64,000 bases of DNA from Bdellovibrio bacteriovorus (GTDB lineage Bacteria > Bdellovibrionota > Bdellovibrionia > Bdellovibrionales > Bdellovibrionaceae): the NCBI RefSeq assembly GCF_002208115.1, contig NZ_CP020946.1, positions 3,038,001 to 3,102,000 of the forward strand, written 5' to 3'. Below the pieces are notes generated by a model. That model made no database searches. It worked only from the letters and a program-made list of their open reading frames with translations, and was not told where the DNA came from. A program made the translations under genes and the position numbers. Position 1 is the first letter of the stretch. Each line of letters opens with the position of its first letter. Positions 16,967 through 35,052 of this stretch are shown in pieces.

Positions 16967-17053
16967 ACTTTAGTTGTACCCGGTCCAGGAGCTTTAGTCC
17001 AGAGTGTGGCCGAATTCATGTCGTTCGCCACTCAACCTTGCTACTATGTGGGA

Positions 17054-17626
17054 ATGAAGAAGTTTTTATCCCTGACCCTATTGGCCGTTCTGATTTCGAC
17101 CTCTATGCCCGCTTATGCCATGTTCACAGAATTGGGCCTGTCTTACGGAAGAAAAACCACCACCTTCGACAAAGACAACTCTTTTGACTCTGAATCCATC
17201 ACAGGTTCGCTGTCCCTGTATTTCCTGGAGCGCCTGGCTCTGGAACTGAGCTACACCGACGCCACGGGCCTGCGTGAAGAAAAAGCCAGTCCATCCGACG
17301 CCCGCCGTACAACGACACAAAAATCCCAGATCCTGGGGGCGGATTTGATTTTGGTTTTTGCGGATAAAACCGCGTTGTTCCAGCCTTACATCAAAGGCGG
17401 CGGAGCGCAGATCAGCCGCTATCAGCAGATTAAAATCGAAGGTCAGGACACTTACACAATCGAACCTGAATCCGTCACCGTTCCCAGCTATGGCGTGGGC
17501 TTGAAGATCAAAGTCACTGAATCTTTGGGCATCAAACTGAGCTATGACGTATGGAAGACACCGATCGGTGACGGCCTGCAAACGGACGACAGCTCCATCC
17601 GGGCCGGTGTGACCTGGGCATTATGA
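17054..17626 (+). CDS. Outer-membrane beta-barrel protein
   Basis: ATG 17054 gives a clear signal peptide (MKKFLSLTLLAVLISTSMPAYA). The 190-residue precursor alternates hydrophobic and polar residues in strands (ELGLSYGRK, SLSLYFLERLALELSY, LGIKLSYDVW) and ends with a strand RAGVTWAL, typical of OmpA/OprF-like or Ail-like eight-stranded barrels. The stop overlaps the next gene by four bases (ATGA). Confidence 0.78.
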   Translation: MKKFLSLTLLAVLISTSMPAYAMFTELGLSYGRKTTTFDKDNSFDSESITGSLSLYFLERLALELSYTDATGLREEKASPSDARRTTTQKSQILGADLILVFADKTALFQPYIKGGGAQISRYQQIKIEGQDTYTIEPESVTVPSYGVGLKIKVTESLGIKLSYDVWKTPIGDGLQTDDSSIRAGVTWAL

Positions 17627-18672
17627 GGCTGAAACTTGGCCTGACACTTCTTGCCGTCGCCACGCTGAACAGCGGATGTCAGATGGGCTATCTGATGAAG
17701 TCGGGCTATGGGCAGATGAAGCTGCTAAACAGCCGCATTCCTGTCGATGAAGCTCTGAAAGATCCAAACCTGGATGAAGGCAAAAAGAAAAAGCTGAAGC
17801 TTGCGCAGGAAGCCCGCACCTTTGCCGAAACCGAACTGCATCTGAAATCCACCAAGAACTACACCTCTTACGTAGAACTGGGCCGCCCCTATGTCACCTA
17901 CGTGGTCAGCGCCGCCCCCAAGTGGGAACTGAAACATCACCAGTGGTCTTATCCGTTCATGGGAAAAATGCCTTACAAAGGTTACTTCAATGAAGACGAC
18001 GCCAAGGAAGAGGAAAAGTCCCTGCAGCAGGACAACCTCGACACCTACATGCGCGGCGTTTCAGCCTACAGCACGCTGGGCTGGTTCAATGATCCGATTT
18101 TAAGTTCGATGCTTCGCTATGATGACTATGATCTGGTGAACACGATCATTCATGAAACTGTGCATGCCACTCTGTACATCAAAAATTCCGCCGACTTCAA
18201 CGAACGCCTGGCCACGTTTCTGGGCAACAAAGGCGCCGAGCTTTTCTATTTGAAAAAAGAAGGTGCAGACTCGCCGACACTGAAGTTGATTCAGTCTGAA
18301 AACGACGACAGCAAAGTCTTTTCGCAGTTTATTTCGGCTGAACTGGATGCACTTGAAAAGTGGTACAAGGAACTTCCATCCAGTGAAAGATCCGAAGAAA
18401 AACGCACGCAGCGAATACAGCAAATTCAGAGTAAATTTTCGGCTGAAGTGGTGCCGCGCCTGAAGACGGAAAGCTATAAAAGATTCGCCGATGCGAAGCT
18501 GAACAATGCCCGCTTGCTGGTGTATCGCACGTATATGCAGGACTTGAGTGACTTCGAAAAGCTGTACGAACTCAGGGATCGCAGCTATTTTTCCTTCATT
18601 GAGGCCTGTCGCGGCCTAGAAAAAGCCAAAGATCCGTCCGCAGAACTCAAAAAAATGCTCTCTCCCCCGTAA
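17623..18672 (+). CDS. Predicted aminopeptidase lipoprotein (PF10023 type)
   Basis: It has a lipobox (TLNSGC) and a central zinc motif HETVH near residue 176, followed by NERLATFLGNKGA, which supplies the third ligand. This matches the predicted aminopeptidases of COG4324. It is coupled to the barrel gene by an ATGA overlap, which suggests the two act together at the outer membrane. Long helical segments follow the catalytic part. Family activity is predicted, not proven. Confidence 0.82.
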   Translation: MRLKLGLTLLAVATLNSGCQMGYLMKSGYGQMKLLNSRIPVDEALKDPNLDEGKKKKLKLAQEARTFAETELHLKSTKNYTSYVELGRPYVTYVVSAAPKWELKHHQWSYPFMGKMPYKGYFNEDDAKEEEKSLQQDNLDTYMRGVSAYSTLGWFNDPILSSMLRYDDYDLVNTIIHETVHATLYIKNSADFNERLATFLGNKGAELFYLKKEGADSPTLKLIQSENDDSKVFSQFISAELDALEKWYKELPSSERSEEKRTQRIQQIQSKFSAEVVPRLKTESYKRFADAKLNNARLLVYRTYMQDLSDFEKLYELRDRSYFSFIEACRGLEKAKDPSAELKKMLSPP

Positions 18673-19030
18673 GGGCTAACCCCCGAAAATCAGGCTTATT
18701 CCACAGCCTCCTGTTTAGGCAAAAATCTGCGAAATTTTCTGCCAGTTTTGTAATGTTTCGCTAAACACGTAAAACCACGATCAAAATCCAGTTCAAATAG
18801 CAGCCGAGCATTGTTAAGAATCTAACAATGCGAAATTGCTAAAGTATCATATAACCCATTCGGGTGATGTGACCCTTTGATATCATTGAAGAATTCTTTA
18901 CACGCGCAGTGTGTCTCTGCTGGCGGAATAAAAAAAATACGACTAAAACTCGCTCACTTTCAAAAAACCATGTCAGGAAGTAACAGAACGTAACAGGACC
19001 CTGACAAGTCACAAAGAAACCGGAGAGAGC
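18673..19030 (+). promoter_or_regulatory. Leader and promoter region of the eight-gene secreted-protein operon
   Basis: The 358 bases have no credible ORF. Notable signals are a perfect 9-bp inverted repeat (GCATTGTTA at 18808-18816, TAACAATGC at 18823-18831), and a 7-bp inverted repeat TGTCAGG/CCTGACA (18971-18977 and 19000-19006) close to the start codon. The latter encloses two copies of GTAACAG ten bases apart. A GGAGAG ribosome-binding site precedes ATG 19031. These may be an operator and a leader hairpin. No known riboswitch was recognised. Confidence 0.55.
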
Positions 19031-19564
19031 ATGAAATTGAAGTTCCTAGGCGCTGCCCTTGTAGCACTAGCAATGTCCCTTACTGTCCACGCTGATGAAT
19101 TCGATGGTGGCAGCCCAGATTACGATCCTCGTCCAAATCCACATTACACAGAAGCAGAGATCCAGAGAAAGATCGAAAACGAAATGGCCGTGGCTTGCAG
19201 AGGCAACCTTTGCTCTATCGTAGGAACTGATGGTCACGGCGAAGGCTGGACGGTGAGCTTCCAGGTTGGCTACGGCGACAATCCAAACAGCGGCGGCAAC
19301 AACTTCTACATCGGCGACAGCCAGAATTCCACGAACAATGGTGGTGACTACTACGCAGGTATCACAGTGACTTACAAGAACTACTCCTGCAACTCCACTC
19401 TGCGTGTGACTCCTTCGGTTTATCGTTTCGTGAACACGTACATGTACAACATGGTGAACGCCGACGGCTCAACAAAGCGTAACTTCTCTCCTGCAGATCA
19501 AACTGTGATTCTGTTCTACACGACGATGCTGAACAAAGTCGATAACTGCAAAGCGCTGAACTAA
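19031..19564 (+). CDS. Secreted protein of unknown function, operon gene 1
   Basis: First gene of the operon. The signal peptide is MKLKFLGAALVALAMSLTVHA. The 177-residue precursor has four Cys residues in the mature part (ACRGNLCSIV, NYSCNST, and one near the C-terminus), enough for two disulfides, and a Gly/Asn-rich centre. I recognise no family. GGAGAG precedes the ATG. The next gene starts 28 bases downstream. Confidence 0.8.
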   Translation: MKLKFLGAALVALAMSLTVHADEFDGGSPDYDPRPNPHYTEAEIQRKIENEMAVACRGNLCSIVGTDGHGEGWTVSFQVGYGDNPNSGGNNFYIGDSQNSTNNGGDYYAGITVTYKNYSCNSTLRVTPSVYRFVNTYMYNMVNADGSTKRNFSPADQTVILFYTTMLNKVDNCKALN

Positions 19565-19592
19565 ACCCGGTAACTGGAAATACAGAGGACTC

Positions 19593-22289
19593 ATGAACAA
19601 ACTCACGTTGATCACTTTACTGATGGCCTGCACCCTGCCGGCACTAAGCCGTGCGGAAGTGCCAGCCCATCAGACAAGTCTTCTGAGTCCTCTGAAATTC
19701 ACCAACCGCGCCCAGTGCGCGCTGGATTCTGAAAAACCGACATCCTCCATCATGATCATGATTGATGGTTACAATGCCGGCAAAACCGCGAACTCCGTCG
19801 CCAAATTGCGCGGCCTGAACACGGAAGAATACAGCAACAAGGCCATGAAGGAATTCCGACTTTCGGTGGCCTACATGACCCTGAACATCATGAACAAAAT
19901 GATCCGTGGGCAGCTTCCGGTGCTGCCCATGAATCTGAAAACTGCGGATCTGCCAAAGTATCTGCAGGTCAACCGCAGCTGCGAAGCCAGTGGTGGCAAT
20001 TGCACCGAGTTGAATGACTACCTTTCTCAAATCTGGGCCCGCGCCGGAAAACGCGCTGAACTGCTAGCCTTTGACAGCTTCACTCAACAAAATTTCCCTC
20101 TGCATGCCTCCAAAGACCGCCTGGGCTGCTATTACATCAAAAAATTCTCGGCTCTGCAGGGGCATCTGCAAAACCCTGAAGTCAACCAGGCCAACCTGCA
20201 GGACATCGCCCTGGCCTACCTGAACGAAGCGGACTATCTGACGGGTTGCTTTAACGCCGATGACAAACTGAACAACCGTTTCGTGACCCTGCAAATCGAC
20301 TGGGAAACGAATGCAAACTCCCTGGCACAACAGGGTTTCGACTTCTGGAACAGCTTGAAAATCTATCTGTCCTGGGCGTGGAGACACACCAACGAAGTTG
20401 AACAGCTAAGCCCTTCATTCGGTCGCATCTTCCGCTCTATCGCCTTGGAAGAATCCATCATGTTCACGCCGAACGGCTGCAAGTCCATGACAAAGCCTTC
20501 CTGTGACAGCGAATATCTTTCTTCAAACAGCATCCGCGAGCTGGCTAAAATCAGCGGCCCGACGCCTGAACACTTCGACACCGTCCCGGTGGGAACGGAA
20601 GCCGAGATGCTGGAAAAAGGCGTTCGTGGCGTGAACAATGACTTCCTGGGCACGCAGTCCTTCGACAGCGCTCAAGAATGGCTGGCGAACTTCCGTAAAA
20701 ATGTGATTCAGTCCCGCGCTCTGATGAAAACCAAGTATCAGGCCGCGATCACCATTTTGAACCTGTTGCAGGATCAACTGGGCGCCGCCGTGCTAAGCAC
20801 TGTGGTTTCCAAAGACATCAGCGCTCACCGTGGCAATGAAGCCATGATGAATGAGCTTTACTACATGTGCACTGAGATCCGTCTGGCCGGCGACGAGACC
20901 CTGGACTTCCTCAAGTCCGATATCGATCGCATTGCTCAGCTTAAAAACATGACTCAGATGCAGTACTCTGACCGTCGCTCTTTGCAAGAGCACGTGAACT
21001 TCTTCAATGCGGTTTCAGCGCAGGTTCTGCCCTTCTGTAACGAGCTTGAAAAACAAAACTACTGGAATAAATCCGGATACACCGTGAACAAGTCCGGATT
21101 CGCCCCCTGGGCGAAAGAGATGATGCAGCTTCAGGCCAATCCGGAAGAAGCCAAATTCATCCCGACAGCATTCAACAACCAGCCTCTGCTGTCCTGGAAC
21201 AACCAGTCCGTTGCGGGCGCCCAGGCGATCTGCTACAGCTCTGTGGACTGCACCCGTCTGATGGTGAAAAGCATGGTGGACCTTTATGCGGTTTCTACCT
21301 ATGCCGATGCGCTGGTTCCCCTGGCAGGTAAAACTTCTGATCCGAATCTGTTCAACCCGTACTCTGAACTGAAAACCTGTAAAATGTACGATCCCTGGTT
21401 CCAAACCCAGCGCATGAACAAAGTGCTGATGGTGGATCTGGCCAATACCGCCCTTTTCGGCTGGAACATCCTGCCAATCTATGTGGACGTGAACTTTACC
21501 GCTCCGAAAGTGGCTTCTTTCAACCAGTTGGTGAAAGACGGTAAAATCAAATTTGATCCACGTGTGGAAAAATCCAAAATGCAAACATCTCTGGTGGCAG
21601 ATTTTGGTCCTTTGCTGGGCGCACCCTGTGCGGTTTCCCTGAATAACAACGGTATCAAGAACTATAACTTCTATTCTTTCTCTGGTCTGACGGTGAATTA
21701 CTGTGATTCCAAACAGTCCAATGAAGTTGTTTCCAACAATCCAAGTGATTTTGCGACCGGCGCAAAAACCGCACGTTCTTTCTGCGGCGGCTGCACCCTG
21801 AACTTCACTGCGGTGGCGGCAGCATCCACCTCCACATTCGGCGTGGTGAATCCCGCGAAGTTTGTAGTGTATCTGTTCCGCACCTTCCAGAAGTACTTCT
21901 CTGCGAAGAAAGACAAAGTAAACATCCCGAAATCCTGGGAAGTGAACGCCGCCTACGCGGCCGAAGTTTACAAAAAATACGGCCAGATCCCATCCCACTG
22001 TGTGGATCAGCTCAGCAAAGGTCTGAAATGTTTCAGAGACAGTTGTGCCGCCAAAGCCGCTGATGTCTTTGAAAAGGCCTACAACACCAAGGTTCACGAA
22101 GTTTATATCCGCGAAGATGATGACAGCCAATGGCCGCCATCCGACACCAAAGAAGCATGGATCAAGTCTGATCTGTGCAAAGGCGAAGCGGTCATTCGCT
22201 TCACCTGCAATGAGCGGAAAGTTGAAAACTTCAGAACACATTCCATGTACGGATTCCACAAGTCCTGCAGAAGAGCGATGGGGAAATAA
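19593..22289 (+). CDS. Large Cys-rich secreted protein, operon gene 2
   Basis: The 898-residue product has a signal peptide (MNKLTLITLLMACTLPALSRA) and more than twenty Cys residues spread along the chain. Many are in close pairs (FCGGCTLNF, LKCFRDSCAAK), as expected for a disulfide-stabilised periplasmic or surface protein. It looks largely helical in the first two thirds. I see no transmembrane segments and no family I know. Its TAA shares bases with the ATG of the next gene (TAATG). Confidence 0.8.
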   Translation: MNKLTLITLLMACTLPALSRAEVPAHQTSLLSPLKFTNRAQCALDSEKPTSSIMIMIDGYNAGKTANSVAKLRGLNTEEYSNKAMKEFRLSVAYMTLNIMNKMIRGQLPVLPMNLKTADLPKYLQVNRSCEASGGNCTELNDYLSQIWARAGKRAELLAFDSFTQQNFPLHASKDRLGCYYIKKFSALQGHLQNPEVNQANLQDIALAYLNEADYLTGCFNADDKLNNRFVTLQIDWETNANSLAQQGFDFWNSLKIYLSWAWRHTNEVEQLSPSFGRIFRSIALEESIMFTPNGCKSMTKPSCDSEYLSSNSIRELAKISGPTPEHFDTVPVGTEAEMLEKGVRGVNNDFLGTQSFDSAQEWLANFRKNVIQSRALMKTKYQAAITILNLLQDQLGAAVLSTVVSKDISAHRGNEAMMNELYYMCTEIRLAGDETLDFLKSDIDRIAQLKNMTQMQYSDRRSLQEHVNFFNAVSAQVLPFCNELEKQNYWNKSGYTVNKSGFAPWAKEMMQLQANPEEAKFIPTAFNNQPLLSWNNQSVAGAQAICYSSVDCTRLMVKSMVDLYAVSTYADALVPLAGKTSDPNLFNPYSELKTCKMYDPWFQTQRMNKVLMVDLANTALFGWNILPIYVDVNFTAPKVASFNQLVKDGKIKFDPRVEKSKMQTSLVADFGPLLGAPCAVSLNNNGIKNYNFYSFSGLTVNYCDSKQSNEVVSNNPSDFATGAKTARSFCGGCTLNFTAVAAASTSTFGVVNPAKFVVYLFRTFQKYFSAKKDKVNIPKSWEVNAAYAAEVYKKYGQIPSHCVDQLSKGLKCFRDSCAAKAADVFEKAYNTKVHEVYIREDDDSQWPPSDTKEAWIKSDLCKGEAVIRFTCNERKVENFRTHSMYGFHKSCRRAMGK

Positions 22290-22879
22290 TGAAATCGATT
22301 TTTCTGTCCCTGATGCTTCTTTTGAACGCCCCAGCAGCCTTTGCCTGGTCGGTTGAATCCGCTGTCGGCACTGGTCCTCGCGGCGAATTCCAGGACACCG
22401 TCACTCTTTACTGCCGTCCCGACGAAACCCTGTGCCAGGAAGTTTGCAAATCCCAGAATTCATGCTGGAAAGAGCAGGAGCTTTGCTTCAACTGCCTGGG
22501 CACCACCAACCCGATCCTGCGCACCGTGTTTACCGAGATCGACCGCCTGTACCGCAACAATCAGCGCGTTCTGCCTGCAGCGGAAGTGGCCCGAGTGTTC
22601 ACAAAGGATCACATCTTTGTGGCCGCCAAAAGCATCTATAACTTCTATTCCGCCATCGACAATCAGGAAGTGATGGCAAGATTCCAAGGGCTGTGCCCGA
22701 CCGGCACCGGGCAACCGCTGATTGTCCTGGAAAAAAACAAGTTTCAGGAACCTTCCCGGATCAAATTCATAGTTTGCGAAGGGACCGGCCAATACAACCA
22801 GGGAATGTACGTTTTGGAGTACAACCCTCAAGTGGAAACCGGAACCAACAACGAAATTAAAGTGAACAGTAAACCTTAA
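22289..22879 (+). CDS. Small Cys-rich secreted protein, operon gene 3
   Basis: A signal peptide (MKSIFLSLMLLLNAPAAFA) is followed by a compact Cys cluster in the first 60 mature residues (LYCRPDETLCQEVCKSQNSC then ELCFNCLG), then a less cysteine-rich domain. No family was recognised. It is translationally coupled to gene 2 by a one-base overlap. Confidence 0.8.
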   Translation: MKSIFLSLMLLLNAPAAFAWSVESAVGTGPRGEFQDTVTLYCRPDETLCQEVCKSQNSCWKEQELCFNCLGTTNPILRTVFTEIDRLYRNNQRVLPAAEVARVFTKDHIFVAAKSIYNFYSAIDNQEVMARFQGLCPTGTGQPLIVLEKNKFQEPSRIKFIVCEGTGQYNQGMYVLEYNPQVETGTNNEIKVNSKP

Positions 22880-22910
22880 AAACAGAACGTTAGATCAAAA
22901 GGAGAAAACA

Positions 22911-23942
22911 ATGACTAACTTGATGAAATTTGCAGCGGTAGCCATGCTACTGATCTCTGCACAAAGCGCGAACGCAATCTCTTTGCGTTTCAAATTCAAA
23001 ACCTTCAGCTCTGGTCCAGACATCTACGCTTGTAATGCTGGTTTGAAGCACAATGCATCCGCTCACAAAGCGTGCTACTTCGAAGACACTCAGATCGCTT
23101 GTACTGCGGGTACTTGTACTGATGCTACCTGCCACACTCGTTGCGTTTGCACTAACGACAACGGTGGTGAGTACCTGATGGACTACATGAAGGGTCAATA
23201 CAGCTCTTGGAACACTGGCGATGCTAAATGGAACACAAACTGGACAGCGACTACCCGTCAAGCTGGTCAGGGTTCTTTCGCAACTTTGGTAAACCACGAA
23301 GATGCATTCTCTAACCGTATCAAAGAACTGAGCTTCAACCTTGGTTCCGAGCTTTATGGTGCTGAGTACTTCGTTGATATCTGCTACCGTGGCCCTCAGA
23401 TTGAGTACTGGGAAGACAACGTAGTTGCTAACTTCAGCCTGTTGGCTCAGGTTTCTGCAACTGACTTCGTTGCTACTGGCGTTAACCCAGGTGACAACAA
23501 CCCAGACGGTCCAGGTTTCAACCACGGTCGTGATGGTTTGAACATGACTCCAAACATCAAGTACACGACTTTGTCCGGCTTGACTGTTGAGTCTTACACT
23601 GTGTGCGACCTTCAAGGCATGAACACATTCAAATACGCTCGCAACAACGCTAACCAGTACAACATGCTGGATAACGAAGCGAAGTTCTCTGACTGGAATG
23701 CTCCACAAAACGGTGGCGGTGACTTCTTCACTGGTACAAACCAGCCAACCACTTTGAATGGTGCTAAAGACCTTTACAACACATGGATCAACCAAAACAC
23801 AAAAACTCCACGCTTCTGCCGTGTACGTTATGTGTTCAAAGAGACAAATCATGCTGCTGCCATCAAAAACCTGAGAAAATGGCAACGTCACGGTGCTGAA
23901 ATGTGTACTTACACTAAAATCGAAGAAGGCGCTGCGAACTAA
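22911..23942 (+). CDS. Secreted protein, operon gene 4, paralogue of gene 6
   Basis: The 343-residue precursor has a signal peptide (MTNLMKFAAVAMLLISAQSANA), a Cys-rich N-terminal insertion (CTAGTCTDATCHTRCVC), and a C-terminal half sharing a motif order with the gene at 25563: VDICYRGP, then SLLAQVSA, then VCDLQG, then PRFCRVRYVFKETN. It has the strongest ribosome-binding site of the operon (AAAGGAG) and prefers GGT, CGT and GCT codons, which suggests it is the most abundantly made product. Function unknown. Confidence 0.82.
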   Translation: MTNLMKFAAVAMLLISAQSANAISLRFKFKTFSSGPDIYACNAGLKHNASAHKACYFEDTQIACTAGTCTDATCHTRCVCTNDNGGEYLMDYMKGQYSSWNTGDAKWNTNWTATTRQAGQGSFATLVNHEDAFSNRIKELSFNLGSELYGAEYFVDICYRGPQIEYWEDNVVANFSLLAQVSATDFVATGVNPGDNNPDGPGFNHGRDGLNMTPNIKYTTLSGLTVESYTVCDLQGMNTFKYARNNANQYNMLDNEAKFSDWNAPQNGGGDFFTGTNQPTTLNGAKDLYNTWINQNTKTPRFCRVRYVFKETNHAAAIKNLRKWQRHGAEMCTYTKIEEGAAN

Positions 23943-23964
23943 TCGCCCTCTTGGTCTCTGAAAG

Positions 23965-23992
23965 GATCGGTCTTATGAGATCGGTCTTATGA
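23965..23992 (+). repeat. Exact 14-bp tandem duplication forming a coupled mini-ORF
   Basis: GATCGGTCTTATGA occurs at 23965-23978 and again at 23979-23992. The first copy places an ATG (23975) eight bases after AAGGA. That ATG opens a five-codon frame (MRSVL) whose TGA overlaps the ATG of the next gene (23989) as ATGA. The real start is thereby 22 bases from the Shine-Dalgarno sequence and probably depends on coupling to the mini-ORF. Confidence 0.8.
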
Positions 23993-25560
23993 AATTCAAA
24001 AATCTTACGGTTCTGATCCTTTCAGGGGTTGTATTTGTGCTGGCAGGCGAAGCTTTCGCCTGCCGCGCTTCTCGTGACATGAAACACAATTTTGCGATCA
24101 ACTTTGAATCCAATCCGCCGATCCGTATTTACGGCGATGGCGAAGGTTCGACGATCCTTCCGCAAATGATCGACAAGTGCACTGAAAGTGCCGGCAGCTT
24201 CCTGATGCTTTCCAAAGGCGTCTATATGCCGAGTGATGTTTCGGATGTGGCGGATATTTCCCTTGATGGTGACCTACCGGATGAAAACATCTGCAAAATC
24301 GAAAATTCGATTTTCAGCAAGCCGATGGATCACAATCAAAAGAAATCTCTGGTTAAACGACAGCACAAATTCCTGCAGCAATGCGCCTTTGTGACCGTGG
24401 CCGAAGTCAACGGCCGCCCCCTTCGTTATAAATCCGACCAGCAATACTGCAAAACCATCCCGCAGGGTGCCAGCATGGTGCAAATGGAAGGGGAGTACTG
24501 CTTCCTGACCATCAACCCCAGCTACAATCTTTCCATCACCATGGGTTTAAAGCCTGAGTGCGCCACTCAGGAAAAAATGAAAGAACTGGGGCTTGAGTTC
24601 GGCGACATCGAAGCGGCTTTGAATTCTTATGTTGCAGGCGATGATTCCGGTCTCAGCCCTGACGTGACTGCCATTGGTTCTTCCCGCTATCGTTTTACTC
24701 TGCAGGCTCCCGCCAACATGATGGAGCTAAGCGAAGACGTGGGAATGGAGGCTCCACGCTTCCCCACCACTTACAATGCTGAATTCAACATGGGCGACCT
24801 TCAGTTCCGTCAAGCCGGTGAAGAGCGCGTGGATCTGAACATGTACCTGTCCGTGGATAACCGACAGCCTTTATTCTGCAACCAGGCTGGCCTGTGCACG
24901 GCACCGTCTGCTTACAACATCCCGGTGGCGGCCGAAGTTGAAGTCTTTAAGGTCGGCTCGCAAAAGTCTGTCTTCATCGACGGATGGACCAGCGGCGGCA
25001 CCATTCAGGGCAACTGGCAGGGGCTGATGCGCTTCCCGCAACAAAGCATTGATGGCCTGAATTTCGTCAAAGGTGAGCGCTATAAAGTGGTTGTAACCAT
25101 GATTGACCCGTTTGAGGACTTCTACATCTATCTGAACAGAGCCGAGCAGTTTCTGATCGATCTGAAAGCGGCCAATGGTGTTGCGGGATTGGATCAAATC
25201 CAGTCCATTCAGCCATTGTCTGACCTGCTGGGCCTGCCACGTTTGACGGGCTTGCCGCATATTTCCTCCGGCGATCTGAATTCAGATCTGGACATGTCCT
25301 TGAGCTATTTCAAGAAACTGGGTTCCACGCGCCTGTGGCCGACTTACTATGAGCGCCTGTGCGATCCCAGCCATGGTCAGTGCTATCTTTCCGGAAAACA
25401 AAAGTTCTGGAACCGCTTCTCTGCTGAATTCACCGTGGGTGAAAAGGGTGATGGTGGCAACTTCGACTTGAATGACATCCGCGTGATCAAAGAATCCCCG
25501 CAGGGCGTGGTTATGAACAAGCAGGTGAAAACTCTGCCTCGCTACAGATGTGAGCCGTAA
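23989..25560 (+). CDS. Secreted protein of unknown function, operon gene 5
   Basis: The 523-residue precursor has a signal peptide (about residues 1-24, ending GEAFA, then CRAS). A lipoprotein cannot be excluded because a Cys directly follows the predicted cleavage site. The mature chain has a dozen Cys residues and mixed alpha/beta character, with no recognised domain. Translation probably depends on the upstream five-codon leader. The stop is two bases before the next ATG. Confidence 0.8.
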   Translation: MKFKNLTVLILSGVVFVLAGEAFACRASRDMKHNFAINFESNPPIRIYGDGEGSTILPQMIDKCTESAGSFLMLSKGVYMPSDVSDVADISLDGDLPDENICKIENSIFSKPMDHNQKKSLVKRQHKFLQQCAFVTVAEVNGRPLRYKSDQQYCKTIPQGASMVQMEGEYCFLTINPSYNLSITMGLKPECATQEKMKELGLEFGDIEAALNSYVAGDDSGLSPDVTAIGSSRYRFTLQAPANMMELSEDVGMEAPRFPTTYNAEFNMGDLQFRQAGEERVDLNMYLSVDNRQPLFCNQAGLCTAPSAYNIPVAAEVEVFKVGSQKSVFIDGWTSGGTIQGNWQGLMRFPQQSIDGLNFVKGERYKVVVTMIDPFEDFYIYLNRAEQFLIDLKAANGVAGLDQIQSIQPLSDLLGLPRLTGLPHISSGDLNSDLDMSLSYFKKLGSTRLWPTYYERLCDPSHGQCYLSGKQKFWNRFSAEFTVGEKGDGGNFDLNDIRVIKESPQGVVMNKQVKTLPRYRCEP

Positions 25561-25562
25561 GA

Positions 25563-26396
25563 ATGAAAGCACTTCTTGTCACCCTGATTGCTGTTTTTTC
25601 CTGCCCTGCTTTGGCCCAGGTGGATGTCACAGTTTCATCCAGCTCTGAGGATATTTTTGTCTGCAACCTGACCCGCACCGCTTCACCTGTGGCCCCTTCT
25701 CCGGGCTCGTTTTCGGGCAGTGTGAGCTATGAGGACCTGAGCTCTCCGGTAAGTTCCCCCTGGCGCAACCGCAGTGTGGGACTGGCGCTGAATGAGGACT
25801 CTGACAAGCTGTTCTCTTTTGCCAATCAGTGGTTGTCCCGCATCACCCGCCTGAAGATGTCTTTTTCGTATGAGACCATGGGTGTCGGATACAAAGTGCA
25901 CATATGCTATCTGGGCCCACTGGCTCAGTGCAAAGGCAATAATGGCAATGGCGAGGGCCATGGCTATGGCAATTGCAAAAACAATGGCAACAACGGCAAC
26001 GGTGTTGGTAACGGCAATACCGGTGAAGAAGACTTCAGCGAAAGAATTTATTCATTGGCCGCCAACGTCCGAAATTCTGCCAATGCCTATACTGCGGCTG
26101 CGAACCTGTACTATCGTGTGACAACGTCCTGTGATTTGCGCTCGGGTCGCACCGACACCCGCCAGGCCAATCAAGTCAGCCCCGGCGACAGTATGCAGGT
26201 GGACTATTCTTACACGACCAACTGGGCGGCCTTTGACGGAACCTTCCGTGACAACGTCATGGTCCTAAACGCCAACTGGCCACAGCGAGCCCCCAAATTC
26301 TGCGAAGTGGTTTTTGAGTTTAAAGAGGCCTCGGCCGCAGCACGCTCCAATGTTTTGACGGATAATGAAATCGAACTGTCCGTCGATATCTTCTAG
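25563..26396 (+). CDS. Secreted protein, operon gene 6, paralogue of gene 4
   Basis: The signal peptide is MKALLVTLIAVFSCPALA. The 277-residue product shares the ordered motifs of gene 4: VHICYLGP, SLAANVR, TSCDLRSG, and PKFCEVVFEFKEAS near the C-terminus. A low-complexity Gly/Asn stretch (25927-26022, NGNG and GNGN repeats) interrupts the domain in a place where gene 4 has none. Both probably adopt the same disulfide-bonded beta-rich fold. Function unknown. Confidence 0.82.
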   Translation: MKALLVTLIAVFSCPALAQVDVTVSSSSEDIFVCNLTRTASPVAPSPGSFSGSVSYEDLSSPVSSPWRNRSVGLALNEDSDKLFSFANQWLSRITRLKMSFSYETMGVGYKVHICYLGPLAQCKGNNGNGEGHGYGNCKNNGNNGNGVGNGNTGEEDFSERIYSLAANVRNSANAYTAAANLYYRVTTSCDLRSGRTDTRQANQVSPGDSMQVDYSYTTNWAAFDGTFRDNVMVLNANWPQRAPKFCEVVFEFKEASAAARSNVLTDNEIELSVDIF

Positions 26397-26404
26397 GTGT
26401 GAAC

Positions 26405-27595
26405 GTGAAAGCACTGATTATTGCCCTGATCATGTCAACCGGGCTGACGGCCCAGGCCGCCGTCTGGAATGCCCAGAATGTGTGGTCTCAAGCGCAGGAG
26501 GACCGCTATTCCCAATGGGTGGTGGAAAACTTCAAGGCCGATATTTTTTCAAATCCAGCGAATCCCTGGTACGGCATTTCCACGGATTGCGCAGATGCCG
26601 TCTATGCAGCAAGGATCATCTTTGCTTACGAGAACTCTTTGCCAGTGGCCTTCACAAATATTGAAAACATGAAGCGCAGCCTGACTCAGTCCATGACGAA
26701 CTGGGATCGCCTGCCGGAAAAGGACCGCGTTCGCAAGTTCATCCAACTGGTGTCGGATCTGACCAGCACCCAGACACTGGGACATGATACGGTTCCGGTG
26801 GCAATCAAGCGCGAATACGTGCGCCCGGGCGCCATCTTTCTGAACCCCACTCTGACGACGGAAGAGGAAAACATCGTCGGCACCCGTGGCGGACACGCCG
26901 AAATGATCATCGATGTGAATGAAAACGGTTTCATCCGCTCTTTGTATTCCACCACACCTTCCAAGGTGCGGGAACTGATCACCACGCGCAATCCTTACAC
27001 CTGGCCGATCAGTCGTCTGGGTGGGTTCCGTGTCTGGAAAACGGCGACATCCCCTGCGGCGAACAATCAGCAGTTTGAAATGGCCGGATGGACCTCTTAT
27101 GGACGTCCGACCCGCAAGCAGATTTACCAATGGCATGAAAGCATCAGAAAAGAACTGCGCCTCAGACCTCCGACAATCGACGAGCGTATTGATGTGGTCG
27201 TGGAAAGCATCTGCAACCTGTGGCAGGGCCGCGTGGATGCGGTGAACGCCGCCTGGAAGGCCGTGCGTGATGCCGGAGGCCGCTGCCCGTCTGCGGGTCT
27301 GCTGGATGAACACTCCACCAACCGCCGCGACGCCCGTCTGCGCGAAGCTTACGGTCAGTTGAATGACCTGATGTACTGGCGCAAGAACAACTATGATGTA
27401 CCTGGTGCTATTGGCGACATCAAGGACGCCAAAGAGGTTCTGACAGCTTGTCATGTGATGACGGGCTTTGCCGCCAACAACGCCTGGGAATTGTTTTTAA
27501 AAATGATCGACGGCCATCTGGTCGCCGATGCCCGCTGGAGCCCGGCGGTGCGCTGGGGTGAAACATCCCGCTATGGAGGTCAACAATGTCGCTAG
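26405..27595 (+). CDS. Secreted NlpC/P60- or papain-like-fold candidate, operon gene 7
   Basis: The GTG at 26405 is chosen over the GTG at 26399 because TAGG lies at a better distance and the signal peptide (MKALIIALIMSTGLTAQAA) then begins normally. The 396-residue product has GISTDCADAVYAARIIF, which looks like the catalytic Cys helix of papain-like amidases, then VRPGAIFL and RGGHAEMIIDV, which would supply the His strand. If right, it is a secreted cysteine peptidase or cell-wall amidase. The C-terminal 180 residues are unassigned and helical. Confidence 0.62.
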   Translation: MKALIIALIMSTGLTAQAAVWNAQNVWSQAQEDRYSQWVVENFKADIFSNPANPWYGISTDCADAVYAARIIFAYENSLPVAFTNIENMKRSLTQSMTNWDRLPEKDRVRKFIQLVSDLTSTQTLGHDTVPVAIKREYVRPGAIFLNPTLTTEEENIVGTRGGHAEMIIDVNENGFIRSLYSTTPSKVRELITTRNPYTWPISRLGGFRVWKTATSPAANNQQFEMAGWTSYGRPTRKQIYQWHESIRKELRLRPPTIDERIDVVVESICNLWQGRVDAVNAAWKAVRDAGGRCPSAGLLDEHSTNRRDARLREAYGQLNDLMYWRKNNYDVPGAIGDIKDAKEVLTACHVMTGFAANNAWELFLKMIDGHLVADARWSPAVRWGETSRYGGQQCR

Positions 27596-27987
27596 TGACA
27601 AGTGCTTTGGTTATGGCGTGTGTGGTCTATGGACCGGCCCAATCCCGCGACAATGTGAACAACTTCAAAATCCTGCAACCGCTGCAGATCCAGGATGGTC
27701 GCATCACCACATTGGCTCGCAACCAGATTTCGCAGTTTGAAAGTTATGACTTTAAAATTGAACAATACAATCTGGATCAGTGTCCGAACTCCATCATCGC
27801 TCGTGATTCCAAGGGTCGCTATGCTGCGGTCAAAGGGATGTACCGGGCCAATGATGGCACTTCTCAAGGGGTGTTTGTCTTTGACGATGGCAACGACGAA
27901 CGCTTCAAGGCGCTGATTCATTGTCCTTACCAGTTTCAGCCCTGCGACTCTGGAATCGACGTCATTTCCGGTTGGGAGATCTTCTAA
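27586..27987 (+). CDS. Secreted small protein, operon gene 8
   Basis: The last operon gene encodes 133 residues with an N-terminal hydrophobic segment (MSLVTSALVMACVVYGPAQS) that is likely a short signal peptide. Three Cys residues lie in the mature part (DQCPNS, IHCPYQFQPC). GGAGGT five bases before the ATG is a strong ribosome-binding site inside the end of gene 7, which it overlaps by ten bases. No family was recognised. Confidence 0.75.
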   Translation: MSLVTSALVMACVVYGPAQSRDNVNNFKILQPLQIQDGRITTLARNQISQFESYDFKIEQYNLDQCPNSIIARDSKGRYAAVKGMYRANDGTSQGVFVFDDGNDERFKALIHCPYQFQPCDSGIDVISGWEIF

Positions 27988-27991
27988 AAAC

Positions 27992-28017
27992 AAAAAGCCG
28001 TCGAAAGACGGCTTTTT
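27992..28017. terminator. Bidirectional terminator at end of secreted operon
   Basis: GCCGTC (27997-28002) and GACGGC (28007-28012) pair around GAAA, flanked by A and T runs. It ends the operon and also serves the convergent sensor gene ending at 28019. Confidence 0.92.
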
Positions 28018-28018
28018 G

Positions 28019-28504
28019 TTACTTCTCTTCGATCAATTTCGGAGAAGGCAGTGGTTTGGCGGTCTTCCCGGGAGTGACTTCAGGATTCGCCAGCATGGTT
28101 TTAATCCGGTTGGTCAGATCCTGCTTGATCAACAGATACTGCACCATGCGCTCAGGTCCCAACAGGGGCTTGAGCTTGTCGAACTCCTCTTCATTCATTC
28201 GACCATAGCTTTGCAGGGACTTGCGATAGCGGGTCAGCTCTTCATCTTTGGATTTTGCCGTGGTGGCTTTGTTCATTTTATCGACGGAAGCCTGCAGCTC
28301 CAGATTGAACTGGGCTTTGCGTTTATTGATGTCCCGGACAATTTCAGAGAATTTCTTTTCTTCGGAGGTGTTCAGCTTCAATTCGTCGCTCATTTTCCAG
28401 ATGAGAAGTTCTTCAAGCTGATTGCGTTTCTCCGCAGCCACAGCCACGGAGAAAGCCGAATTTAGACATATTAGGAATATTAGGAACAGAGTCTTCAGCA
28501 GCAC
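28019..28504 (-). CDS. Periplasmic CpxP/Spy/CnrX-like helical protein
   Basis: The signal peptide spans about residues 1-24. The rest is a long amphipathic helical chain rich in Lys and Glu (MSDELKLNTSEEKKFSEIV), reminiscent of the CpxP/Spy and metal-resistance sensor group. As the third gene of an ECF sigma operon it may tune the anti-sigma factor from the periplasm, as CnrX does. The family assignment is weak and rests on pattern and context. Confidence 0.6.
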   Translation of the reverse strand: MLLKTLFLIFLICLNSAFSVAVAAEKRNQLEELLIWKMSDELKLNTSEEKKFSEIVRDINKRKAQFNLELQASVDKMNKATTAKSKDEELTRYRKSLQSYGRMNEEEFDKLKPLLGPERMVQYLLIKQDLTNRIKTMLANPEVTPGKTAKPLPSPKLIEEK

Positions 28505-28528: not shown

Positions 28529-29008
28529 TTAGCGTCCGCTTTCACCCATGATTTTATTGAATTTATCTACAGATAAATTTTCGAATGATTCGCGAGCTAC
28601 GTCCATAAAAAAGTCAGATTCGCTCTGCGTGCTGATCAAGGTCTGGGAAATCTCCTCTGGGGACAAAAGGGCCTCAGAGACAATACGCTCATGCCCGTCG
28701 CTCAGAAGCCCGGCTCTGGTCATCGACTGGTTTACTTTTGACACCTGCGGCATCAAAAGAACAGCGAAGGCCATCAGCGAAGCTACGCCGCTGACGGGAT
28801 AAAGCCATCCTCGCCAGTGAGAGCGAAGCAGATTCCGCGGAGTCATCAATACCGGAGCCGGTTTGATTTCCACGGTTTCCACCTCTGCCATGATTTTATC
28901 ATGCAAACGATCGAAGAAATCATCGTTCATGGGCAGTTCCATATCGTCGGCGGCTTTAAGGCCTTTGCGCACTTTATCCATGCGATCCATACGGTCCACG
29001 TTGTCCAT
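28529..29008 (-). CDS. Probable membrane anti-sigma factor
   Basis: The 159-residue protein has a cytoplasmic N-terminal part of about 65 residues with a short helical start (FFDRLHDKIMAEVE), one transmembrane segment (GVASLMAFAVLLMPQV) and a small periplasmic domain. It starts six bases after the sigma gene stop. This is the usual position and topology of an ECF anti-sigma factor, and no zinc HxxxCxxC motif is visible. Confidence 0.75.
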   Translation of the reverse strand: MDNVDRMDRMDKVRKGLKAADDMELPMNDDFFDRLHDKIMAEVETVEIKPAPVLMTPRNLLRSHWRGWLYPVSGVASLMAFAVLLMPQVSKVNQSMTRAGLLSDGHERIVSEALLSPEEISQTLISTQSESDFFMDVARESFENLSVDKFNKIMGESGR

Positions 29009-30078: not shown

Positions 30079-31011
30079 TTAAGCGACGATGGTGGTACGG
30101 TTACGGCCACCCTGTTTGGACTGGTACAGCGCCTTGTCGGCACGGTCGTACACTTGAGTCCATTCAGTTTCATTTGGAAGCTTGGTGGCAACACCCACGG
30201 AGATGGTCACCGGGATCTTCTTGCCTTCAAATGTAAAGTCATGGGCTTCGATCGTCTGACGGATACGTTCGCCCACTTCACCGGCTGTTTTGGATGGAGA
30301 ACCGGAAAGCAGCAGCACGAACTCTTCACCACCGTAACGGGCAAAGAAGTCGTTGGAGCGAATCAGCTTGGTGATCACGATACGGCACAGTTCCTTCAGA
30401 ACATAGTCACCGCCCGGATGCCCGTAGCTGTCGTTGATCTTTTTAAAGTGATCGATATCGAAAGTCACAAGACTGAAGGGCTCGTTCAGAACTTCGGCGC
30501 GTTTCATCGCTTCAGGGCCCTTGTCCAAAAGCGCCCCTTTGGAATGAGCACCCGTCAATGCATCCTTCTGCGCACGATCGTACATCGCCGCATTGGTCAT
30601 GGCTTCGATGCTGCCTTTTTCAAGGAACTTGAAGATCACGTTGCCGGTTTTGATCTGATCATTGTTTTTCAAAAGGCACGATGCCAGTGGCGGGATCACC
30701 TGACCATTCACAATGGTTTTATTGGTGGAACCCAAATCGATCACGGACACTTCACTGCCATTGACAGCGAACTTTGCGTGAGAGCGGCTCAAACTTTTAT
30801 CATCAATGTAGACTTGGCTTTCCACAGAGCGGCCGATGACAATGTCACTGGCCGTGATAGGATATTGTTTACCGACGTAGCCCGGAGGGCCGATCAAAAC
30901 AACAATTGCCGGCGGAACATCATCCGCCTCTTTAAGACGACCCTTGAAAGTGTCGCTGGCAACAATACTGGTTTTTTCTAAGTTGTCTGAATTGTCATCG
31001 TTGTGAGCCAT
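30079..31011 (-). CDS. dgcB: FHA-GGDEF diguanylate cyclase DgcB
   Basis: This enzyme makes cyclic di-GMP from GTP. In B. bacteriovorus DgcB (Bd0742) is needed for prey invasion. The 310-residue protein has a short N-terminal tail containing EKTSIV, an FHA domain (VIGRSVESQVYIDDKSLSRSHAKF, then DLGSTNKTIVNG) and a GGDEF domain with RYGGEEF near residue 226 and the inhibitory RxxD (RSND) five residues before it. The ATG at 31011 is preferred over the extension to 31041. It is 37 bases downstream of pgi and probably co-transcribed with it. Confidence 0.95.
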   Translation of the reverse strand: MAHNDDNSDNLEKTSIVASDTFKGRLKEADDVPPAIVVLIGPPGYVGKQYPITASDIVIGRSVESQVYIDDKSLSRSHAKFAVNGSEVSVIDLGSTNKTIVNGQVIPPLASCLLKNNDQIKTGNVIFKFLEKGSIEAMTNAAMYDRAQKDALTGAHSKGALLDKGPEAMKRAEVLNEPFSLVTFDIDHFKKINDSYGHPGGDYVLKELCRIVITKLIRSNDFFARYGGEEFVLLLSGSPSKTAGEVGERIRQTIEAHDFTFEGKKIPVTISVGVATKLPNETEWTQVYDRADKALYQSKQGGRNRTTIVA

Positions 31012-31048
31012 AGGAAAAAGTATAAAACTTCCCCCCGTCACCTGACAA

Positions 31049-32266
31049 TCAAGCTTTCTTCAATTTCTCTTTCGCTAGTCTCTTGCCCAGCTCGACACCC
31101 GGCTGATTGAAGGCGTCGATTTCCAGGTAATCTCCAAGCCCCGCAACCACAAGCTGCCAGAACATAAACATGTAACCCAAAGAGTGTTCATCTAGGACTT
31201 TAGTCTTAAGAGTCATCGTGGAAACACCACTCTGATTCAAAGCCTCCTGCGTGGCCAAACCTTCTGCCCGCAAAAGTTCACCCATCGTGCGACCTTCAAG
31301 GTCCTGAGTTTCTTTGAACTGAGCTTTCTTGATGCGCAAAGAACCCGCCTCGGATTCCTCCACACGCTGGAACACAACGAACTTATCTTTGGTTCCTTCC
31401 ATCACCTGCTGCAAAATCGAATGCTGATCCGAAGCCCCGACAGCAGACATCGGCGTGCTCACACGCGGAGCCGGTTTCCCCGCACGAGTTTCAGGTTTCC
31501 CCAATGACTCGGCCCAAAGCTGCTGATACCAAGCTCCGAAAGACTTCATACGAGAATTGTAAATCCAAAGCAGAGTGATCCATTCTTCACGCTTATAACT
31601 TTGCGCCACTTGCGCCATCGTCTGAGTCACAACTGCCGTGTCATTCAAAGCGCGCATCGCCCCGACACGGAACTTCTCAAGATCCAACCCCAGGAACGCC
31701 GCCGGCATCATCCCCACCGGAGAAAGCACCGAGAAGCGCCCCCCAACATCCAAAGGAATTTCACAAGTAGGAATAGAATGCTTGCGAGCCCAAGCCATCA
31801 AACTGCTGTCTTTGGTTTCAGAAATAACCACACTGTGCTTGGGAAGATTCAGTTTCTCTTCCGTGTAAATCTGATCCACAAGCTCCAAAGCACACAAAGA
31901 CTCAATCGTAGTTCCGCTCTTGGAAATGAAAACCCAAGCAACCTCTTTCAGGTCCCCCAGCTCTTCAATCAAAGTCTCAAACTCCAGAGCATCCACATTG
32001 TCGACAAAGAACATATTGCGAGCACAGAACACTTCCGCAATCACCCGAGTCCCCAGCGAACTACCACCAAGACCCACGATAACAATCTTCTTAAATTTCT
32101 CTGCCAGCTCAGTCCCAACTTTATAAGACTGCTGCCACAAAGAAACCCGCTCCATCACCTGCGGAAAGCCAATCTCTTTACGCTGCAAAAACAACTTCAA
32201 AGACTCCTGACACTTCACCAAAACAGATTCATCAATTTTATGAAACGAATGCGAAATCTCCAACAT
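31049..32266 (-). CDS. pgi: Glucose-6-phosphate isomerase
   Basis: This enzyme interconverts glucose-6-phosphate and fructose-6-phosphate. The family motifs VGLGGSSLGTRV, ISKSGTTIESLC and the C-terminal FNQPGVELGK are present. The length of 405 residues is short beside the E. coli enzyme but close to the smaller bacterial form. The true start is ATG 32266. The frame stays open to 32443 only because it reads through the GC-rich repeat units, which translate into unrelated sequence. Confidence 0.94.
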   Translation of the reverse strand: MLEISHSFHKIDESVLVKCQESLKLFLQRKEIGFPQVMERVSLWQQSYKVGTELAEKFKKIVIVGLGGSSLGTRVIAEVFCARNMFFVDNVDALEFETLIEELGDLKEVAWVFISKSGTTIESLCALELVDQIYTEEKLNLPKHSVVISETKDSSLMAWARKHSIPTCEIPLDVGGRFSVLSPVGMMPAAFLGLDLEKFRVGAMRALNDTAVVTQTMAQVAQSYKREEWITLLWIYNSRMKSFGAWYQQLWAESLGKPETRAGKPAPRVSTPMSAVGASDQHSILQQVMEGTKDKFVVFQRVEESEAGSLRIKKAQFKETQDLEGRTMGELLRAEGLATQEALNQSGVSTMTLKTKVLDEHSLGYMFMFWQLVVAGLGDYLEIDAFNQPGVELGKRLAKEKLKKA

Positions 32267-32301
32267 ACGTGCATCTCTTTCTAAGTTAAAAACCGATCCC
32301 A

Positions 32302-32357
32302 CCCGCGGCGCTCCCAAAGGGAGCCAGCCCCCACGCGGCGCCCGAAGGGCCAGCCAG
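32302..32357 (-). repeat. Two REP-like GC-rich hairpin units
   Basis: On the minus strand two units share the frame GGCTGG-hairpin-GCGCCGC with the three at 8598-8690. One has stem GCTCCC/GGGAGC (about 32302-32329), the other GCCC/GGGC (about 32333-32357). They lie between the structured element and the pgi start, in the same order as at the other locus. Confidence 0.75.
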
Positions 32358-32374
32358 AAACCAACGGAAAATAA

Positions 32375-32500
32375 GCGGGTGATCAAAACAGTCCGAGCGC
32401 AAGGCGGAGGGGCGCCCTCGCAGCGCAGGCGTGCTCCAAGCACGTCGAAGCGAGAAGGCGACCCGACAACGCAGTCGATCGGGCTGTTTTCATCGCCCGC
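32375..32500 (-). repeat. Dispersed structured 3' element, copy 2
   Basis: Its core matches copy 1 (8730-8850): GCGCAAGGCGGAGGG, hairpin CGTGCT-CCA-AGCACG (32430-32444), and CCCGACAACGCAGTCGAT. The terminal stem is 20 positions (32375-32394 with 32481-32500), with two G-U pairs and the same single C-C mismatch as copy 1. Several pairs are changed on both sides relative to copy 1. It directly abuts the stop codon (32501-32503) of the minus-strand metallophosphoesterase gene. Confidence 0.82.
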
Positions 32501-33640
32501 CTAGGAAATAGCTACGTCTTCTTCGATTTTGTGGTAACCCTTCCACTCCTTCAATCTGCCTCGCGGCCGACCTCCGTCTTCAGGGTATTCGATAAGAACA
32601 TAGGTTAGTTTCGTGATCTTTCCCAAGGACACAATATCCAAAGAAGTGATCTCAGTCCATGTTCCCGTATTGAAATATTCTTTATTCTCTGACCACTGGC
32701 GATACTGGTACACGTGCGTGTGACCAAAGATGACTGTGTGCACACGGTCATCCCCCAGGATTTTACGCGCCGATTCACTTAAATCCGGAAAGATGGCGCT
32801 TTCCGCAATCACCTGAATGATACGCTTCAAAGGCCAATGACGGCGCGGATCCTTTACCAGGATGCTTTTCAGGAAATATCCCATGGCCATAAAGAACGCG
32901 CGAACCATTGTTCCGGTTTCGTTCAGGAAAGCCCAGCGGACCATTTTGCCAAAAGGACGGATCTTGTCGACATGGGGGTAGTGTTGTTTGATTTTCAACA
33001 CGACTTCCAGGAAGAAATGGGATCCAAACGGCAGGTTGAGGATCGGTTCCACCAGATCCTTTTTCAGGAAAAACTTTTTGGGGTCCATACGATTGGCGGC
33101 CTCATGCATGTGGCCGTGTTCGATATGAACTCCATCAAAGAAATAGACGATGTTTTTAAAACGAATTGGCGTCCCGATGACCTGATTCAGGTAAGCGCGG
33201 CAGGCGGGCCACAGCATCCCTTGATCGTGGTTGCCGACGATATAGGTGATGGTGTTACCGGGTTTTGCGGCGAATTCGGCCAAAGCAGTAAAGACAGCTT
33301 TATGCCCGTTCACGCAGTCTTTCAGAATTTCCAAGGTGACGGATTCGGTGATCACTGAAAGGAAGTGGCCCTTGTAATCACACTGCAGGAAGTTCAGGAA
33401 GTCCCCGTTGATAATCAGTTCGACTTCATAGTCACGATAGACACCGGTGGAATAGAAGTGGATGAATTCCACCAGCTTTTCCCCGTAATAGAATTCTTCG
33501 AGTGAATTGATTCCGCCTTTTTCCAACAGGCGGCCCTTCCCCAAATGGAGATCACTGACGATGATCTTGATTTTTTTCACGGGAGCAGGTTTCGCGACGG
33601 CGGTGCCCTCGCTACTTTCTACCTGGGAAGCGGACTCCAT
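32501..33640 (-). CDS. Calcineurin-like metallophosphoesterase
   Basis: The 379-residue cytoplasmic protein carries the dinuclear metal motifs in order: SDLHLGKG, INGDFLNF, VGNHDQGM, IEHGHMHE and FGHTHVYQY. It belongs to the broad PF00149 group; UDP-2,3-diacylglucosamine hydrolase (LpxH)-like activity is possible but not shown. It starts one base after the coiled-coil gene stop, so the two are co-transcribed. The structured repeat starts at its stop codon. Confidence 0.85.
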   Translation of the reverse strand: MESASQVESSEGTAVAKPAPVKKIKIIVSDLHLGKGRLLEKGGINSLEEFYYGEKLVEFIHFYSTGVYRDYEVELIINGDFLNFLQCDYKGHFLSVITESVTLEILKDCVNGHKAVFTALAEFAAKPGNTITYIVGNHDQGMLWPACRAYLNQVIGTPIRFKNIVYFFDGVHIEHGHMHEAANRMDPKKFFLKKDLVEPILNLPFGSHFFLEVVLKIKQHYPHVDKIRPFGKMVRWAFLNETGTMVRAFFMAMGYFLKSILVKDPRRHWPLKRIIQVIAESAIFPDLSESARKILGDDRVHTVIFGHTHVYQYRQWSENKEYFNTGTWTEITSLDIVSLGKITKLTYVLIEYPEDGGRPRGRLKEWKGYHKIEEDVAIS

Positions 33641-33641
33641 A

Positions 33642-34988: not shown

Positions 34989-35052
34989 GTCTAAGGGAAA
35001 TATCGGAATTTTCCGGACTTCCCTTTAAGTATAAAACAAAGCCGGATCAATA

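Follow-up and report, generated by a model that had tools for sequence, protein, structure and literature searches.

Chaperone-usher fimbrial operons are compact and encode Sec-exported disulfide proteins, one of about 900 amino acids (aa) next to smaller, beta-rich, variable distal subunits. The same can be said of an eight-gene operon (g1 to g8) which we analysed in a 64-kb stretch of Bdellovibrio bacteriovorus DNA, here called the window, belonging to a genome of 3,769,537 bases. However, none of the eight proteins gave a Pfam usher or chaperone match up to an E value of 1, and g2 is predicted to be mostly helical, not a beta-barrel. F-type type IV secretion systems, with their periplasmic proteins TraN, TraU, TraW, TraF and TraH, are also similar in that several exported Cys-rich proteins are encoded together. 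Nevertheless, no match to TraN, TraU, TraW, TraF, TraH or TrbC was obtained with Pfam or NCBIfam, or when family members were run singly against Pfam, and the conserved core of the module lacks an ATPase, an inner-membrane channel and a pilin gene.

Among the predators' own proteins, the chimeric fibre proteins of Bdellovibrio and the MIDAS adhesin Bd0875 have been proposed to meet prey (PMC10769870, PMC11003981). The module comes close to the former insofar as a second operon of its kind lies directly downstream of a fibre-like gene with collagen repeats. Each of those, however, is one protein in which fibre or MIDAS domains can be recognised, whereas the module is a fixed set of proteins matching no Pfam family; in g1-g8 themselves there was no Pfam match to fibre or collagen-like repeat domains, and collagen repeats were seen only in the neighbour of the second operon. 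We also dropped a connection with the 'rose-like complex' known from tomography, since that structure has been described as tripartite-pump-like. The module has the look of a multi-part structure, located at the cell surface or outside it, that has not been described before.

Organisation of the operon

Eight co-directional ORFs occupy positions 19031-27987 of the + strand, at the coordinates given in a preliminary description of this DNA. The operon and its signals comprise the following features:

18673..19030, + strand: leader upstream of g1, non-coding, presumed promoter region (ORF and motif scans)
19031..19564, + strand: g1, exported protein of 177 aa, core, 4 conserved Cys, conserved half
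19593..22289, + strand: g2, exported protein of 898 aa, core, 22 conserved Cys columns, model mostly helical
22289..22879, + strand: g3, exported protein of 196 aa, core, 8 conserved Cys
22911..23942, + strand: g4, exported protein of 343 aa, beta-sandwich model, opens the exchangeable block
23989..25560, + strand: g5, exported protein of 523 aa, core, 12 conserved Cys, exchangeable block
25563..26396, + strand: g6, exported g4 paralogue of 277 aa with a Gly/Asn-rich spacer, fast evolving, exchangeable block
26399..27595, + strand: g7, exported protein of 398 aa, optional component, putative papain/NlpC-like
27586..27987, + strand: g8, probably exported protein of 133 aa, accessory, in the closest operons only
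27989..28020, + strand: intrinsic terminator hairpin, 14 pairs and a U-tract, directly 3' of the g8 stop codon

From g1 to g8, the genes are separated by +28, -1, +31, +46, +2, +2 and -10 bases, in agreement with the tight packing (about -10 to +46) first reported; the 'several' overlaps of that report come down to two true ones (-1 and -10), a slightly generous wording. The grouping is above chance because the set is kept together across the phylum (see below). In the leader, a weak sigma-70-like match at 18822-18850 is a candidate promoter, and stretches such as TTCTTTACA and CTGTCAGGAA are shared with HD100, Tiberius and kdesi. We take the first two of these relatives to be B. bacteriovorus HD100 and Tiberius. 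At the other end, the operon closes with one terminator, as had been described: the hairpin comes straight after the final stop codon and adjoins the end of a convergent gene on the - strand, and the hairpin stem is identical in HD100 and Tiberius while the loop is altered. Since the number of terminator-like sites in the region (15 observed versus 13.4 in shuffles) is not above chance, it is the position and the conservation of this hairpin that argue for it.

Predicted export signals and cysteines

A strong hydrophobic N-terminal segment was found in all eight products, so that the N-terminal signals noticed earlier extend to the complete set. Lacking K/R, g8 has a less typical start. No transmembrane segment was apparent after the N-terminus in any of the eight. 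The products had also been called mostly rich in cysteine, and in seven of them (g1-g6 and g8) cysteine indeed makes up 2.3-4.6% of the presumed mature part, with 1.3% in g7. The background, drawn from the 64-kb window only, is 0.97% in the 48 other genes and 0.86% in 16 exported-looking ones.

Conserved Cys columns number 4 in g1, 22 in g2, 8 in g3 (all eight invariant across 29 sequences) and 12 in g5. These are even counts in four unrelated families, which is what full disulfide pairing would give, and from the sequences we infer that the conserved cysteines of the module proteins are paired in this way. The g4/g6 alignment, in which two paralogues are mixed, contains nine conserved Cys columns, and g7 has four conserved Cys besides the presumed catalytic one. 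The idea that g5 is a lipoprotein, based on an invariant Cys beside the cleavage site, was dropped since the preceding residues fit signal peptidase I and the Cys count is even only if that Cys is counted.

Family searches and structure models

None of the eight proteins reached the cut-off in Pfam, NCBIfam, PHROGs or PADLOC, in line with the absence of recognisable families claimed at the outset. When all members of the six family alignments were compared with family profiles, only chance-level matches were obtained, except for a weak one to DUF4846 in g7, and profile searches of PDB sequences returned nothing usable. Folds with unrelated housekeeping functions, which would have spoken against the first reading of the operon, did not turn up in profile or structure searches.

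The only enzyme-like product of the eight, a single possible enzyme fold having been noticed earlier, is g7. Its C64 (in DCAD) and H166 (in GGHA) are invariant in 16 sequences and stand in the order expected for the NlpC/P60 type; such a Cys-then-His arrangement is typical of NlpC/P60-like papain-fold proteins. DUF4846 was matched weakly by five of the 16 g7 proteins, with a best E value of 2.4e-4 that is below the curated cut-off, and the window g7 itself gave E 0.086 and 12.8 bits, the cut-off being 37. Thus g7 shares the DCAD cysteine and the subsequent GHA histidine with NlpC/P60-type or DUF4846 proteins but differs from them in scoring below the curated threshold, and no genome yielded an NlpC/P60 or DUF4846 profile match above cut-off for g7. 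By its motif, g7 is probably a papain-like enzyme, not a proven family member.

Structure models were built from the 21 usable sequences for g2 and the 25 for g4. For g4, the model shows a beta-sandwich, at moderate confidence (pLDDT 73, pTM 0.76). Closest to it in structure are carbohydrate-binding and fibre-type beta-sandwiches, with Z of at most 6.2, a value within the chance range for this fold class: the best hit (Z 6.2, 128 residues, rmsd 3.4) stands amid many unrelated beta-sandwiches, and the best Foldseek E value is 1.3e-3. The g2 model is mostly helical (pLDDT 70, pTM 0.62) and had no convincing structural neighbour and no PDB match. A lack of structure matches for these models does not show that the g2 and g4 folds are new. 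In g2, the segment 623-753 is well conserved in sequence and modelled with very low confidence, as can happen with a part that folds only together with a partner.

Distribution in the Bdellovibrionota

In iterated profile searches, g1-g5 were found to travel together. Where g2 is flanked by 5.5 kb or more on both sides (52 loci), all five families are present in 49; g3 is the next gene after g2 in 50 of 51 loci, and g5 the next after a g4/g6 gene in the same proportion (50/51). The block order is g1-g2-g3-g4-g5 in Bdellovibrio and g4-g5-g1-g2-g3 in Halobacteriovorax-like genomes; in others, the blocks are arranged divergently. The neighbours of the module vary (acyl-CoA dehydrogenase, transglycosylase or carbonic anhydrase genes, among others); no gene outside the core accompanies it repeatedly from locus to locus, and the conserved core itself contains no cytoplasmic or membrane partner.

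Among 369 genomes of the phylum, g2 was detected in 75 and g5 in 75, with both in 73 (Fisher p ~3e-72, a value that ignores shared ancestry and is indicative only). The g4/g6 profile found 74 genomes, nearly the same set, and therefore these families are hardly found outside the module. As a side observation, kdesi has a third, solitary g2 gene (L033:7150-9918) with the other core genes absent nearby.

The module is kept across the phylum, including a genome that we take to be Halobacteriovorax marinus SJ, but it is missing from 7 of the 24 genomes of the genus and from another that is presumably the epibiotic predator P. exovorus JSS. These absences count against the module being essential for predation. 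The role on prey or at the bdelloplast put forward in the preliminary description is one possibility only.

Of 70 loci, 23 contain g7 and 6 contain g8, so both are optional. This bears on the idea of a secreted complex that digests or remodels the wall of prey, in which g7 would be the catalytic part and g1-g6 carriers and binders. The conserved Cys-His pair of g7, as the only enzyme-like member, agrees with it, as does the weak resemblance of g4 to carbohydrate-binding beta-sandwiches. The five-part core, however, stays where g7 is absent, in the second operon of the same strain as well as in most loci, and has no recognised catalytic motif, which makes us regard such a complex as unlikely.

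Outside the phylum, a pattern-based scan of 84,980 species, of limited sensitivity since members inside the phylum were also missed, found no relatives: the matches carried only the names Bdellovibrio, Bdellovibrionaceae or Bacteriovoracaceae, or were an unspecified bacterium or Proteobacteria. None of the module queries tried had a relative in viral, phage or plasmid collections. As no family was recognised, these collections gave no relative and the species scan stayed within the titles just named, we rate the system as new as to its components, with the reservation that the search was of limited sensitivity. With the same reservation, the assembly is so far known only from Bdellovibrionota.

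Exchange of the g4-g6 block

At about 937-944 kb, the same genome contains a second operon of this kind, in which g1-g6 are present and g7 and g8 absent. Its g2 is 45% identical to the window g2. In the module, g6 is a paralogue of g4, and its Gly/Asn-rich spacer reaches a much greater length in some strains; that of kdesi g6 (L029:13343-14491), a very long Gly/Asn repeat compared with the window g6, suggests length variation. In the window strain, HD100, Tiberius and kdesi, the second operon stands downstream of a gene for a long protein. At L021:6614-9439 and L023:13299-16454, directly upstream of the operon, this protein has 941-1051 aa and combines a Thr/Ser-rich stretch with a long collagen-like NGN repeat. 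Collagen-type repeats are recognised by Pfam in the protein of the window strain, and the NGN repeat run is much longer in HD100 than there.

The second operon is syntenic between the window strain and HD100. While the flanking genes are 94% (upstream) and 93% (downstream) identical in aa, the identity within the operon falls from 95% (g1) and 92% (g2) to 76% (g3), 56% (g4), 43% (g5) and 40% (g6). At the DNA level, identity of about 71-85% drops to 49-69% (mostly 50-60%) just after the g4 start and is back at 84-90% right behind g6. In g4-g6, the second operon of kdesi, although kdesi is more distant, is closer to that of the window strain than HD100 is, with 88, 81 and 69% in g4, g5 and g6. 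In the g5 tree, HD100 falls outside the group of window strain and kdesi (support 100/100), whereas in the g2 tree it falls inside. Rapid evolution alone is insufficient to explain this, because the distant kdesi is closer in g4-g6 than HD100 and because the g2 and g5 trees conflict.

A similar situation was observed for the first operon, that of the window. Between kdesi and the window strain, identities are 93% (g1), 74% (g2), 57% (g4), 33% (g5), 40% (g6) and 43% (g7), with near flanks at 80-98%, and the g2 and g5 trees of kdesi are likewise discordant. Therefore, the drop in identity together with the discordant trees indicates that replacement has affected g4-g5-g6 as one block, including g7 where the operon has it, a conclusion drawn from the two exchange events that were looked at closely. 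We read such replacement as a sign that the products of the block fit one another and face something variable; it could also come about by homologous recombination without selection by an outside partner.

Two other readings of the module meet here. In one, the module would serve the predator's own envelope without acting directly on prey, for instance as a scaffold in the periplasm or the surface layer that maintains cell shape or gives osmotic protection. Sec export, disulfides and the absence of anchors would suit a periplasmic complex, and the genus genomes without the module mean that it is dispensable for predation there, if those species are predators. On the other hand, block replacement between close strains and fast divergence are better suited to an outward-facing part, and a patchy presence speaks against a general envelope role, so that we consider the scaffold rather improbable. 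In the second, it would be a system of cell-to-cell antagonism or one related to phages, such as a toxin complex that is secreted or a surface feature selected by phages. Systems of this kind are typically exchanged in blocks and distributed in a patchy manner; nevertheless, the core contains no immunity-like cytoplasmic gene, PADLOC gave no match, and the phage, viral and plasmid collections lacked relatives of the queries tried. We hold this reading to be very unlikely.

Genomic neighbourhood

Upstream of the operon, at 17006-18672, lie genes for a putative aminopeptidase (PF10023, E 5.5e-110) and a small outer-membrane-type protein, which are kept in HD100, Tiberius and kdesi and do not accompany more distant copies of the module. 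Beyond the convergent genes at the other end, an RpoE-like sigma factor, an FHA-GGDEF protein and phosphoglucose isomerase correspond to Bd0743, DgcB/Bd0742 and Bd0741 of HD100, and therefore the operon sits close to dgcB, though encoded on the other strand and with its own terminator in between. Deletion of dgcB abolishes predation (PMC6561027). The - strand at 30079-35000 carries dgcB (Bd0742-like), the Bd0741-like phosphoglucose isomerase, a phosphoesterase-like protein and a coiled-coil protein at the place expected for Bd0739, which has been reported to partner RomR, a polarity protein (PMC11025332). A protein of 159 aa with one hydrophobic segment is encoded at 28529-29008 (- strand), immediately behind the gene of the RpoE-like sigma factor; judged by its sequence and position it is possibly an anti-sigma factor, although these sigma factor genes have been described as lacking one (PMC3464611).

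In the main texts searched, no mention of the presumed HD100 locus tags of the operon region, Bd0746-Bd0756, and no expression data for the operon genes were found; Bd0745 comes up there solely because it lies next to the gene of the sigma factor Bd0743.

Proposed assembly

The co-occurrence and co-localisation of g1-g5, the even Cys counts, the core devoid of cytoplasmic or membrane partners and the exchange of g4-g6 lend good support to the coordinated, multi-part exported assembly suggested in the preliminary description. It is very probable that g1-g5, with g6, are one exported system. That its proteins form a complex at the surface is predicted from gene content, and co-occurring genes can share a pathway without forming a complex.

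The mechanism that we prefer, and to which we give about an even chance, is a base (g1-g3) that carries an exchangeable, outward-facing head (g4-g6). The products would leave the cytoplasm by Sec and become disulfide-cross-linked in the periplasm, where g1-g2-g3 would make up the conserved base or assembly part. For the crossing of the outer membrane, type II secretion of the folded, disulfide-bonded proteins would be the likeliest route, since the core contains no outer-membrane barrel, anchor or lipoprotein signal. The beta-rich head of g4-g5-g6 would touch a variable outside partner, which may be the surface of prey or of another cell, a glycan or a phage; that prey cells are this partner is a tentative proposal. 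As an optional addition, where present, g7 would be a papain/NlpC-like enzyme, and the peptide bonds that it may cut or cross-link could belong to wall material or to the assembly itself.

Taken as a whole, the module is possibly, though doubtfully, a new surface or secreted machine confined to Bdellovibrionota, with a disulfide-cross-linked base and a recognition head whose allele would help to set which prey, surfaces or phages are engaged. Predators export many proteins of obscure role, and which of these form a set can seldom be told. Five exported families that are inherited as one unit, with naturally conserved and swapped halves, constitute a testable system. If the head does contact prey, the module would bear directly on how these predators choose and handle their prey.
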